DNA of 35,160 bases from Planococcus sp. A6 (lineage in GTDB: Bacteria > Bacillota > Bacilli > Bacillales_A > Planococcaceae), in the NCBI RefSeq assembly GCF_028823615.1, contig NZ_JAPEHT010000021.1:1-35160 (forward strand), given 5' to 3'. Of the stretch, positions 19,347 through 22,326 are shown piece after piece. Each line of letters opens with the position of its first letter. The stretch's first letter is position 1. Position numbers and translations under genes: made by a program. The notes under the pieces were generated by a model. That model was given only the letters and a program-made list of their open reading frames with translations, was not told the origin of the DNA and did not search any database.

Positions 19347-19976
19347 TTATTCTTTGATAATTAATCCCAGTTTCCGGGCAAACAACAACGCTTGACCTGT
19401 AGATACTTTGCACCCCGACACCAATTCCATTGTCAATTGTAGTTCTTCGAAGCGGCTTGAACTGAAATCGATTCCTTTCAGGGAAGTTCCTGTGAAGTTC
19501 GCTTCATTTAACTCACTGTCAAGAAACTGCGTGTTTTTCAAATCCACTTCGTAGAAATCTCCCTGCCTGAGAGCACTTTGTTCAAAAATTACATCACTGA
19601 TATGGGAGAAACCAAAAACCGTATAATCAAGCCGGCAGCCTTTAAAGTGCGTATAGCGAATTGTACTTTCAGTGAAATCCGTGCCCAGCAATCTGCAATT
19701 CTCGAACTTCACACGATGGAACACCGCACGGCCTAAATCAGCATTCGATAAATCACAATTGATGAACACAATATCTGCAAACTCACTGCGCTCCCATTCA
19801 CCACCCAAAAAGCGGACATTCTCGAACACCACCCGGTCGAAATGAATTTTTCCTGCCGGCAATTCTTCAGAAACGATTCGGCAGTCATGGACATATCCAT
19901 CATCTAATGCTTCAATAAAAGAAATTGTTTCTAATTCCTTGGGAAGCATCGGTTCCGTTTTCTTGTTCTTCTTCAT
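19347..19976 (-). CDS. Pentapeptide-repeat protein
   Basis: This 209-aa protein is built largely of A(D/N)LXX-like pentapeptide repeats from about residue 45 to 180 (for example VVFENVRF, CDLSNADLGRAVF, CRLLGTDF, CRLDYTVF, SELNEANFTGTSLKGIDFSSSRF), which fold as a right-handed quadrilateral beta-helix. Some relatives (Qnr, MfpA, McbG) mimic DNA and shield gyrase; others have no known role, so this function should not be assumed. AGGAGG at 7-8 nt before the ATG at 19976 fixes the start; the frame continues 64 codons further upstream but would run into the divergent operon's leader. It is transcribed divergently from the DUF1538 operon with 114 nt between the starts. Confidence 0.85.
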   Translation of the reverse strand: MKKNKKTEPMLPKELETISFIEALDDGYVHDCRIVSEELPAGKIHFDRVVFENVRFLGGEWERSEFADIVFINCDLSNADLGRAVFHRVKFENCRLLGTDFTESTIRYTHFKGCRLDYTVFGFSHISDVIFEQSALRQGDFYEVDLKNTQFLDSELNEANFTGTSLKGIDFSSSRFEELQLTMELVSGCKVSTGQALLFARKLGLIIKE

Positions 19977-20090: not shown

Positions 20091-20786
20091 ATGGAAAATG
20101 TCAAAAGTACTTTTAAGGAAGTCGCCTCTGCCATTCTGCCTGTCACGATTGTCGTCGTCTTGCTTCAAGTGTTGATCATCCGCCTGCCGCTCGAAGCGTT
20201 GCTGCAGTTTTTAATCGGGGTCATTTTTGTAGGAACCGGTTTTTTCCTGTTCCTGCTGGGGGTCAATGCAGGGCTGCTCCCGATCGGTGAATTGATCGGC
20301 AAGAAGCTGCCTTTGACCCGCAAGCCATGGCTCATCATCGGGACAGGCCTTGTGCTTGGTCTTGCCGTCACGATTGCCGAACCGGATGTTCGCGTTTTGG
20401 CTAATCAAATCGATGATGTTTCAGGAGGAGATATTTCAAGAAACATCCTCATTCTATCCGTTTCCGTGGGATTGGCGATCTTCGTTGCTTTGGCGATGGT
20501 CCGGACGCTGTTCAGCATCCCAATCCATTATATGCTGATCGGGGGATATACTTTGGTTTTCCTTCTTTCCTTTTTTGTCCCTGAAGCATTCATCCCCATT
20601 TCATTCGATGCAGGCGGCGTTACGACCGGCCCAATGGCAGTGCCTTTCATCTTAGCACTGGGCATCGGCGTCGCTTCCGTGCTGCGATCCGATAAGCCAA
20701 GCAGCGGCGAAGGCTTCGGCTTGATCGGGCTTGCCTCGATCGGGCCCATCATCGCAGTCATGCTCTTGGGGGTGCTGTACCGGTGA
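20091..20786 (+). CDS. DUF1538 membrane protein (first copy)
   Basis: This 231-aa polytopic membrane protein belongs to DUF1538. About seven hydrophobic segments are visible. The family's conserved charged or polar motifs are EPDVRVLANQI near residue 97 and FDAGGVTTGPM near 172-181, both next to membrane segments and good candidates for substrate or ion contacts. AAGGAG lies 7 nt before the ATG. Its stop overlaps the start of the second copy as GTGA, so the two are translationally coupled. Together with the downstream double PII-like protein this suggests a regulated membrane transporter or channel. The substrate is unknown. Confidence 0.85.
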   Translation: MENVKSTFKEVASAILPVTIVVVLLQVLIIRLPLEALLQFLIGVIFVGTGFFLFLLGVNAGLLPIGELIGKKLPLTRKPWLIIGTGLVLGLAVTIAEPDVRVLANQIDDVSGGDISRNILILSVSVGLAIFVALAMVRTLFSIPIHYMLIGGYTLVFLLSFFVPEAFIPISFDAGGVTTGPMAVPFILALGIGVASVLRSDKPSSGEGFGLIGLASIGPIIAVMLLGVLYR

Positions 20787-21526
20787 ACTTGCATATCTTC
20801 CAGGGTTTTGGGGAAGTGCTGATTGAAGTCAGCATGGCTCTCCTCCCACTTGTCGTGTTTTTCAGCGTATTTCAATTGTTCATGCTCAAATTGCCGAAAG
20901 AACGCGTTCTGCAAACTGGTCTCGGTTTTATTTTGACATTTTTCGGATTGGCTTTTTTCCTTCAAGGCGTCCATATCGGCTTCATGCCCTTCGGTGAATT
21001 GATGGGGGCGGAACTTGGGGAGTGGCAGTATCGCTGGGCAATCATTCCGATTGGCTTCATGCTTGGCTTTGTGGCAACATTCGCCGAACCCGCTGTCCGC
21101 ATCATGAATGAGGAAGTCGACCGTGAAACGGGCGGTTATATTTCCTCGCAGATCATGCTCTACACCTTATCGACGGGGGTCGGCTTATCCATCGCTTTGT
21201 CGATGCTGCGGATATTGACAGGCTGGTCGATCTGGTATTTCATCCTGCCAGGTTATATTCTCGCACTGATCCTGATTTTCTTCTCCACCCGGACATTTAT
21301 CGCAATCGCCTTTGATTCAGGCGGTGTCGCTACCGGCCCAATGACCGTCACGTTTATCGTCTCAGTAGCAGTCGGCATCGCTTCTGTAACAGAAGGAAGA
21401 GATCCACTTGTCGATGGCTTCGGGATGATCGCCCTTGTGGCATTGACGCCGATTATCGCCGTTCTCGTTGTCGGCTTACTCTTTAACCGAAAGGCAGGGA
21501 ATCAAAACCATGAATCTGAATCATAG
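20783..21526 (+). CDS. DUF1538 membrane protein (second copy)
   Basis: This 247-aa protein is a paralogue of the upstream gene, with the same layout of about seven membrane segments and the same motifs: EPAVRIMNEEVDRETGG near residue 101 and FDSGGVATGPM near 177-187. It starts with GTG inside the stop of the first copy (4-nt overlap), and its own end overlaps the PII-like gene start by 17 nt. The tandem, coupled arrangement suggests that the two form a hetero-oligomer (inference). The loop between the membrane segments near residues 75-85 (ELGEWQYRW) and the motif region differ from the first copy, so the two halves are not interchangeable. Confidence 0.85.
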   Translation: MNLHIFQGFGEVLIEVSMALLPLVVFFSVFQLFMLKLPKERVLQTGLGFILTFFGLAFFLQGVHIGFMPFGELMGAELGEWQYRWAIIPIGFMLGFVATFAEPAVRIMNEEVDRETGGYISSQIMLYTLSTGVGLSIALSMLRILTGWSIWYFILPGYILALILIFFSTRTFIAIAFDSGGVATGPMTVTFIVSVAVGIASVTEGRDPLVDGFGMIALVALTPIIAVLVVGLLFNRKAGNQNHESES

Positions 21527-22199
21527 ACTGATGATTGCCATTGTAAAACGCGGCGCTTCAAGGGAGGTCATCGCAGCAGCGAAAGAAGCCGGCGCTGATG
21601 GGGCGACGGTGCTGTATGCAGAAGGGATCGGAAGAAACGAAAAACCTACGTTCCTCGGGCTCCCCGCTACACACGAAAAAGATGTCATCTTTATCGCCGT
21701 CGACGGTGAAATTGAATTTGCCGTCGCCGAAGCGATCAGCCATGCCGGAAAGCTGGGGAAATCCGGTTACGGTCTCGGCTTTACTATCCACCTCAGCCAA
21801 TTGCTGGGGGTTCCCCACCTAAACGACCGCGAAGACGATCGAAAAAAGATGCGAGGAGTGGAAAAAATGCCAGAACCGAAAGATTTTCAGTTGATTGTGA
21901 CCATCGTCAATTCCGGGGATTCCGGGCAAGTCGTCAAAGCAGCTGCAAACGCCGGCGCTGAAGGCGGGACCATCCTGGAAGGGCGAGGCACCGGAGTCAA
22001 CGAACAGAAGAAATTCATGAACTTTACGATTGACCCGGAAAAAGATGTCGTCCTGACATTGGTGCCGGCCGTGTTTGCCGAAAAAGTTGTTGCAAGCATC
22101 GAACAAGCCGTCGACCTCGACGCTCCAGGAAAAGGCATCGCCTTCTTGATCGACGTGGAAAACGTGTTTGGGGTCAATCATTCCTCTTTGAATCCATAA
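21510..22199 (+). CDS. Tandem PII-like signalling protein
   Basis: This 229-aa protein contains two PII-family domains in one chain. Domain 1 covers about residues 1-105 (LMIAIVKRGASREVIAAAKEAGADGATVLYAEGIG) and domain 2 about 122-225 (QLIVTIVNSGDSGQVVKAAANAGAEGGTILEGRGTG), joined by a charged linker (REDDRKKMRGVEKM). Both have the PII beta-alpha-beta pattern. Domain 2 ends with APGKGIAFLIDV, close to the nucleotide-binding GxGKIFV strand of classical PII. The T-loops are short and lack the uridylylated Tyr of GlnB/GlnK. PII proteins are trimers that read ATP/ADP and often 2-oxoglutarate and gate partner proteins. The ATG at 21510 with AGGGA at 9 nt is preferred over an earlier in-frame start inside the second DUF1538 gene. 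The partners are probably the two DUF1538 proteins. Confidence 0.85.
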   Translation: MNLNHRLMIAIVKRGASREVIAAAKEAGADGATVLYAEGIGRNEKPTFLGLPATHEKDVIFIAVDGEIEFAVAEAISHAGKLGKSGYGLGFTIHLSQLLGVPHLNDREDDRKKMRGVEKMPEPKDFQLIVTIVNSGDSGQVVKAAANAGAEGGTILEGRGTGVNEQKKFMNFTIDPEKDVVLTLVPAVFAEKVVASIEQAVDLDAPGKGIAFLIDVENVFGVNHSSLNP

Positions 22200-22200
22200 G

Positions 22201-22233
22201 AAAAACCGGTGAGCTCAAGACTCACCGGTTTTT
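22201..22233 (+). terminator. Bidirectional terminator after the PII-like gene
   Basis: AAAAACCGGTGAG and CTCACCGGTTTTT are perfect inverted arms around a 7-nt loop, starting 2 nt after the stop. The same hairpin has a T run on the minus strand and directly follows the stop of a small minus-strand frame. Confidence 0.9.
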
Positions 22234-22326
22234 CTATTTAATCACGTTCTGCGCCGTGCCCTTTGGAGTTGGCGGCTTTCCGTAGAGCTTCGTTTCAGCG
22301 TTTTCGTTATCTTTCATTTCGTTCAT
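22234..22326 (-). CDS. Possible 30-aa small protein
   Basis: A short frame encodes MNEMKDNENAETKLYGK followed by PPTPKGTAQNVIK, a hydrophilic 30-residue peptide. Its stop codon directly adjoins the bidirectional hairpin at 22201-22233, the arrangement expected for a real convergent gene. Two ATGs (22326 and 22317) are possible, both with weak ribosome sites. It resembles in style the tiny soluble proteins of Bacillales (spore or stress related), but I recognise no family. Confidence 0.3.
   Translation of the reverse strand: MNEMKDNENAETKLYGKPPTPKGTAQNVIK

Follow-up and report, generated by a model that had tools for sequence, protein, structure and literature searches.

A dedicated PII-like protein accompanies DUF1538 membrane proteins across bacteria and archaea: a putative PII-gated, antiparallel cation/proton antiporter

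The operon at positions 20091 to 22199 of contig NZ_JAPEHT010000021.1 of Planococcus sp. A6, within the 35,160-nucleotide (nt) stretch of DNA that was analysed (the window), encodes two DUF1538 membrane proteins and a fused double PII-like protein. We think it probable that these form a PII-gated antiparallel monovalent-cation/proton antiporter of two DUF1538 subunits. We also lean, slightly less firmly, towards regarding DUF1538 as an unrecognised dual-topology transporter family, which comprises singles, opposed pairs and inverted-repeat fusions, has undergone at least two independent duplications and, in nearly all sampled genomes that have it, operates under a PII-like clade that is dedicated to it and deeply separate. 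Direct computation gave the family assignments and the fixed genetic linkage, and showed that the two subunits are oppositely charge-biased and that the third protein has the PII fold and has lost canonical PII ligand residues. The subunits are named here after UmpA and UmpB, subunits of a Na,Li,K/H+ antiporter, whose NCBIfam models (NF041627/NF041628) are the nearest. The features of the operon are as follows (TM, transmembrane segments; K+R, lysine plus arginine residues; aa, amino acids).

20091..20786, + strand: UmpA-like DUF1538 subunit; 231 aa; 7 TM, N-terminus inside (predicted); PF07556 247.8 bits; loop K+R even 9, odd 3
20783..20786, + strand: UmpA/UmpB gene overlap of 4 nt (GTGA), from the sequence
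20783..21526, + strand: UmpB-like DUF1538 subunit; 247 aa; 7 TM, N-terminus outside and C-terminus inside (predicted); PF07556 255.6 bits; loop K+R even 3, odd 7
21510..21526, + strand: overlap of 17 nt between the UmpB end and the PII start, from the sequence
21510..22199, + strand: double PII-like protein; 229 aa; PF00543 57.7 bits in two stretches; predicted model; PDB match PII
21528..21800, + strand: PII domain 1, the fast-evolving copy (profile match, residue alignment, tree)
21888..22169, + strand: PII domain 2, the conserved copy, in the clade holding the single-PII versions (profile match, residue alignment, tree)
22199..22235, + strand: intrinsic-terminator-like hairpin, then CTATTT; fold -23.7 kcal/mol, z -7.8

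Genomic partnership of DUF1538 and the PII-like protein

Both membrane proteins match the Pfam family DUF1538 (PF07556) across almost the entire model, far above the gathering cut-off of 22.6 bits. They are 39% identical to one another and carry the motifs EPxVRxxxxxxD and FDxGGVxTGPM, of which the EP and D-G-TGP residues are invariant in 16 aligned DUF1538 proteins; the view of an earlier note, made from the sequence alone, that they are DUF1538 paralogues sharing these motifs is thereby confirmed. The nearest named relatives of the UmpB-like protein are 96% identical to it. The source genome contains a single DUF1538 pair; of its three PII domains, one is a canonical PII located elsewhere.

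In the window's own family DUF1538 is present in 18 of 151 genomes, with a double PII directly downstream in 18/18 loci. In the phylum, where 139 of 398 genomes contain DUF1538, a double-PII profile matched 158 genomes at E<=0.001 and 139 at E<1e-20, the stricter cut-off having been picked after viewing the list. At this cut-off 137 genomes contain both families, 2 DUF1538 only, 2 the PII only and 257 neither, that is, the PII is found in 137/139 genomes with DUF1538 and in 2/259 without it (Fisher p 1e-102, not corrected for relatedness); at the looser cut-off 21 genomes are PII-only, 19 of them by weak matches. The two DUF1538-only cases are a decayed fragment with stop codons and no PII (G206) and a sequence that stops at a contig edge (G453), and one of the PII-only cases is a short, apparently decayed piece (G199). 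The other, G516 (L234:5658-7592), holds the only intact-looking PII of this clade without DUF1538 among the 398 genomes, 175 nt before a CitMHS/ArsB-type permease whose best NCBIfam match, under the cut-off, is MamN; a swap of transporter partner is possible there.

Adjacency within the phylum was read from 95 regions in the better-scoring 93 of the 138 other DUF1538 genomes, the remaining 45 being left out, and in this sample the PII adjoins 95 of 100 DUF1538 runs. The five other runs lie at contig ends (L043, L216), in L088, whose genome (G367) carries the PII on another contig, in a fragmentary contig of a metagenome-assembled genome with a PII piece before the DUF1538 gene (L039) and in a stray fragment (L041). 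Among the named loci, some of which coincide with loci of the other samples, the PII adjoins 76 of 80; two of the rest are at a contig edge and two, from Bacilli (L128, L138), are truly without it. In the phylum of Pseudodesulfovibrio (the Desulfovibrio phylum), 12 of 247 genomes contain DUF1538 and the PII was detected by profile in 11/11 fetched regions as well as in the twelfth (named locus L147). In L207 the PII is a 56-aa fragment lying where the contig stops. Two loci (L208:4324-7590 and L209:4388-7650) contain 713- and 706-aa DUF1538 fusions with long inserts beside 369- and 381-aa PII-side proteins, for which no Pfam family match was found.

The partnership extends to the archaeal phylum of Methanoculleus, where DUF1538 is present in 44 of 294 genomes, a PII of this clade in 43 (E<=1e-12) and both in 43; the exception is truncated by the end of its contig. 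Each of the 46 archaeal PII places is downstream of DUF1538 and on its strand. The distance is at most 150 nt in 41 of them, 472-492 nt in four, of which two were read and are double PIIs with the second half matched (the other two are presumed alike), and 2.7 kb in one. In this last case (L239:3681-5802, G952) an insertion, by eye a TnpB-type gene and two small genes, lies between. Two small archaeal genomes (L237:1978-3838 and L238:2132-3992) carry a single DUF1538 and a single PII followed by a gene that is NAD synthase-like by eye. On plasmids, PII and DUF1538 tblastn searches (E<=1e-5) match the same 9 of 72,556 records and the matches are adjacent by coordinates in 9/9; three of the nine records were read. 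For example, Methylocystis rosea pGW6_2 (L195:4297-6088) has a DUF1538-DUF1538-PII trio with IS66 elements on both sides, as if moved as a unit. Viral contigs gave 28 pattern matches and no relatives, and DUF1538 had no matches in 14 well-known control genomes, which may explain why it has been little studied.

The earlier note had named a PII gene seldom found beside DUF1538 genes as the observation that would refute its proposal of a two-subunit transporter with a dedicated PII; the opposite holds in the window's family, the phylum sample, the named loci and the Desulfovibrio phylum, and the co-occurrence and adjacency counts support that proposal. The PII frame also overlaps the last DUF1538 gene in 18/18 family loci and in 74/95 of the phylum sample; these counts assume the first in-frame start codon, which makes them upper bounds. 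A chance neighbourhood is rejected on the co-occurrence and adjacency counts. Statistics that take no account of relatedness leave room for arguing that the order arose neutrally or by phylogenetic accident, with no functional link; however, the same order is found in Bacillota, Balneolota, the Desulfovibrio phylum, an Aminicenantes genome, Alphaproteobacteria plasmids and methanogenic archaea, and the trio is retained on plasmids, and we regard an accident as extremely improbable. The DUF1538-PII partnership is near-obligate and is new here. We did not find it among the best-ranked titles in the open literature, a search that covered neither subscription papers nor preprints and does not prove its absence in print. 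In the available text of papers mentioning DUF1538, PII or P-II occurs nowhere in PMC5484666, PMC5996927 and PMC6055358, while PMC7221264 has one 'pii', inside a sequence motif; the available text of PMC13255231 has no occurrence of 'nitrogen regulatory' (the sole term checked for PII there), and that of the UmpAB-citing PMC10030654 and PMC12093952 none of P-II.

The two kinds of module are also numerically matched, which is likewise new here. With D for DUF1538 and P for a PII domain, the locus layouts are D D PP (as in the window), D D P P, DD PP, DD P P, D D P and D P. An intact fused DD with a single P was not seen among them, the sole case (L207) stopping at a contig edge; eight complete single-D loci all carry a single P, and an extra 'D PP' (L020) begins at a contig edge. 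In L110 the first D is split, and L208 and L209 read by profile as DDD with PP or PPP, holding inserts. G524 (L094:4691-7924) has two systems in tandem, a single-D single-P unit followed immediately by a fused DD PP unit.

Charge bias and topology of the DUF1538 subunits

Loop borders were set on the window UmpA from hydropathy and from the model of a fused DUF1538 homologue (L186; predicted local distance difference test score (pLDDT) 86.5, predicted template modelling score 0.84), after viewing both window proteins, and K+R were then counted in 102 of 105 separate-pair loci, three with a short partner being dropped. UmpA has more K+R in even than in odd loops in 102/102 loci (means 7.18 versus 1.71), and UmpB has more in odd than in even loops in 100/102 (means 8.19 odd, 3.52 even). 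The same opposition is seen in fused DUF1538 proteins, the first halves of which are even-biased in 74/74 and the second halves odd-biased in 74/74. As this alternation of charge fits seven crossings, it implies, at the level of sequence, that UmpA and UmpB are antiparallel. A Foldseek search with the L186 model gave no match at E<=0.001 (best 0.017, TM-score 0.11), and we therefore claim no fold class for DUF1538.

The eight true single-D genes show no such bias, with even minus odd differences of 0, +4, +1, -1, -1, -1, +1 and +2 (mean +0.6); L143 and L168 were dropped from this class because a contig start cuts off the partner. A first DUF1538 tree resolves three clusters, namely UmpA with fused half 1, UmpB with fused half 2, and single D, and a second places six singles outside the UmpA+UmpB group and two beside it; both were midpoint-rooted for drawing, and their sequences are related rather than independent samples. 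The pairs of L202-L205 form two sister clades nested within the single genes (support 100/99), an independent duplication, and their even/odd counts are 7/3, 10/1, 9/2 and 10/3 in the first copies (N-terminus in) and 4/6, 5/6, 3/6 and 6/7 in the second (the reverse). In L207-L209 the first halves fit the pattern (7/5, 7/4 and 6/2), as does the second half of L207 (3/9). Thus, singles are unbiased and pairs and fusions oppositely K+R-biased, except for the second halves of L208 and L209, and this charge pattern, as far as sequences can tell, is what descent from a dual-topology ancestor would be expected to leave. The opposite subunit bias, and its re-evolution after an independent duplication, are new here. 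Neither the antiparallel arrangement nor the breadth of the DUF1538-PII pairing figures in the earlier note.

SMR/EmrE and DUF606 are dual-topology families with singles, biased pairs and fused repeats. DUF1538 resembles them in its unbiased singles, oppositely biased pairs and fused inverted repeats, but differs in two respects: each unit has seven predicted TM, and all architecture classes observed include a soluble PII partner. The antiparallel series may also serve as a natural record of the origin of inverted-repeat transporters, in which the cytosolic partner marks the inside face.

The double PII-like protein

The third protein is matched twice by the Pfam family P-II (PF00543), at 25.8 bits in half 1, barely above the cut-off of 25, and at 38.1 bits in half 2. 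The strand/helix order of the PII fold is present twice in its AlphaFold model (pLDDT 81.6), and the top Foldseek matches are PII proteins (3lf0, E 4e-6), in alignments of about 95 columns that cover one half each. Two PII-like domains in one chain, as the earlier note had it, are thus recovered by profile and by structure prediction in each half, and its short T-loops are borne out, both being six residues shorter than that of E. coli GlnK. Its claim that domain 2 keeps a canonical GKGIAF-type nucleotide strand fails, as the strand in GlnK reads GDGKIF; both domains follow a family pattern PGxGI(A/G)F with I/L/V at the position of Lys90, and domain 1 of the window reads SGYGLGF.

A residue table against GlnK was made from 141 first domains (P1), 141 second domains (P2) and 38 single PIIs (single P). 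In GlnK we take Tyr51 to be the uridylylation site, Lys90, Arg101 and Arg103 to be ATP contacts, and Lys58 and Gln39 to be 2-oxoglutarate contacts. In all three classes GlnK positions 46-50 are missing, position 41 is missing in 96-100%, and position 51 is mostly L/F/M, so that the full T-loop and Tyr51 are lost; position 90 is I/L/V, position 101 is Gly in 84-100% and position 103 is variable. The clade, without Tyr51 and without the ATP contacts Lys90/Arg101/Arg103, thus lacks the marks of canonical GlnB/GlnK. Lys58 is kept (83% of P1, 96% of P2 and 89% of single P), and Gln39 is swapped mostly for N/S/H. The clade has a conserved set of its own, stronger in P2 and single P than in P1: Arg34 (91%, 95% and 30%, respectively), Gly37 (96%, 100% and 32%), Glu40 (80%, 84% and 52%) and Glu57 (99%, 84% and 57%), with Gly101 as a further clade-specific position. 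In the window, position 34 is Glu in domain 1 and Arg in domain 2.

In the PII tree, which has few columns, weak forks and long branches, single PIIs group with P2 (support 97/92) and P1 lies on longer branches, which suggests that the ancestral sensor is represented by domain 2 and that domain 1 is an altered copy. Two canonical PIIs, on a branch of 5.8 changes/site, are drawn inside P1, a placement that we do not trust. One conserved and one altered domain, as the earlier note had supposed, hold at the family level by residue table and tree. A PII clade without canonical ATP-contact residues and Tyr51, with its own conserved set, a conserved domain 2 and a fast-evolving domain 1, is new here.

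These residues bear on whether the protein senses anything. A constitutive structural or assembly subunit, which holds the antiparallel subunits together with no metabolite switch, would account for the near-obligate pairing, the matched module numbers and the loss of canonical ATP-contact residues in every PII class. However, P2 and single P retain R34, G37, E40, E57, K58 and G101 at 80-100%, and these clade-specific, possible ligand residues are more than a scaffold would seem to need. Since, in addition, UmpAB is active without a PII in the available account (PMC5484666) and two natural UmpAB loci (L128, L138) lack the clade PII, we consider a purely structural role unlikely.

Gating, substrate and operon boundaries

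The established roles of PII proteins lie in nitrogen and carbon control, and they gate the transporters AmtB (by GlnK) and SbtA (by SbtB). The genetic linkage expected of a PII-gated transporter is found here, and the operon resembles GlnK-AmtB (E. coli gene order seen) and SbtB-SbtA in placing a PII-fold gene beside its own transporter, but its transporter belongs to another family and its PII is short-looped, often double, and without canonical ATP contacts and Tyr51. PstA/DarA is a c-di-AMP-binding (cyclic di-AMP) PII-like protein of Firmicutes; it shares with the present clade a PII fold in Firmicutes and signalling unlike that of classic PII, but no c-di-AMP link was found here. In the proposed mechanism, an antiparallel DUF1538 pair (UmpA N-in, UmpB N-out) would exchange a monovalent cation, whose identity in the window's clade we infer, for a proton. 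The dedicated PII-like sensor would dock, presumably by direct contact, on the cytosolic face of the antiporter, and a small metabolite binding to it would switch the antiporter on or off rather than merely stabilise it, with domain 2 as the probable main ligand site and domain 1 as its altered partner. We know of no transport assay within the window's own DUF1538 clade.

The earlier note had called the substrate undescribed, which is wrong at the family level because antiport by UmpAB, of the same Pfam family, has been published as Na+(Li+,K+)/H+ exchange. According to the available text of that work, umpAB of Halomonas zhaodongensis, when co-expressed, confers salt and alkali tolerance on E. 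coli KNabc, UmpAB in vesicles carries out Na+, Li+ and K+/H+ antiport, and UmpB co-precipitates with UmpA as a heterodimer (PMC5484666). The window has the UmpAB layout of an overlapping homologous gene pair with about 40% partner identity and 7 predicted TM each; it differs in its PII partner and antiparallel charge bias (PII, P-II and topology have no occurrence in the available text of PMC5484666) and in lying under the NCBIfam equivalog cut-offs. One paper, moreover, ranks DUF1538 within the top 20 Pfam families for the prediction of growth pH (PMC13255231, Table 1), and studies of cable bacteria connect UmpAB to salinity (PMC10030654, PMC12093952), as far as the available portions of these papers go.

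A different substrate, such as ammonium, bicarbonate or an organic acid, gated by nitrogen or carbon state as in AmtB-GlnK and SbtA-SbtB, might also be envisaged for the window's clade, given that it scores under the UmpA/UmpB cut-offs and that no solved relative of the fused model was found; to our knowledge, a single DUF1538 family member has been assayed. Nevertheless, the EP and D-G-TGP motif residues are invariant, canonical PII ligand residues except Lys58 are mostly not kept, and the pH and salinity literature, in its available parts, points elsewhere (PMC5484666, PMC13255231, PMC10030654), making such a substrate rather improbable in our judgement.

Several observations weigh against a PII-gated antiparallel antiporter. 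On the UmpA model (equivalog cut-off 490) the UmpA-like protein scores 121.9 and the UmpB-like protein 124.5, and on the UmpB model (cut-off 500) they score 113.7 and 117.5, respectively, far below in each case and with both subunits best on UmpA; these proteins are therefore filed as DUF1538 relatives, not as UmpA/UmpB equivalogs. The active 4.2-kb umpAB clone has one cut and three intact open reading frames, none described as PII in the available text, which suggests that UmpAB exchange works without a PII (PMC5484666). Sutcliffiella deserti and Metabacillus lacus (L128:4300-5711 and L138:4276-5744) have a UmpAB pair with no clade PII found in the genome, each genome holding one PII of canonical-type score; given this, and the activity of UmpAB in E. 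coli without PII, transport does not require the PII. The tabulated loci include no DUF1538-PII fusion. The odd-loop bias is absent from UmpB of L093 and L219 (the 2/102), and the second halves of L208 and L209, with a long charged insert in loop 2, have even over odd counts (17/9 and 12/10). An Rfam search at gathering cut-offs gave 0 matches in the window and 6 in 26 other loci, none of them a Na+ or c-di-AMP riboswitch, and a riboswitch link to either was rejected.

L128 and L138 are natural test cases for unregulated transport. A hint of the docking site was sought in residues changed in these PII-less loci and proved uninformative, as only 2 UmpA and 4 UmpB positions at least 85% conserved in 17 PII-bearing loci are lost in both. 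If this reading is true, the PII-gated transporters AmtB and SbtA would be joined by another class, in which the exchange of monovalent cations for protons is coupled to a metabolite, in bacteria as well as in methanogens. With such an antiporter bound to a PII clade of its own, the metabolic state of Bacilli, gut Clostridia and methanogens would be linked directly to their pH and salt homeostasis, and the recurrence of the partnership in many bacteria and methane-making archaea suggests a little-studied tie of salt and pH control to metabolism.

With regard to the operon itself, the coordinates confirm the end-to-start overlaps of 4 and 17 nt described in the earlier note, and translational coupling is inferred across the first; the PII start was taken as the ATG at 21510, and a TTG 42 nt upstream is also open. 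A promoter scan of the window gave 3 sites against 2.5 expected, and a terminator consensus scan gave terminator-like sites at about chance (4 versus 3.3 expected), the hairpin at 22199-22235 being unlisted. The folding energy of this hairpin agrees with the single strong terminator proposed earlier, and the hairpin closes the operon. A divergently transcribed gene lies upstream:

19350..19976, - strand: pentapeptide-repeat protein, divergent from the operon (Pfam match)

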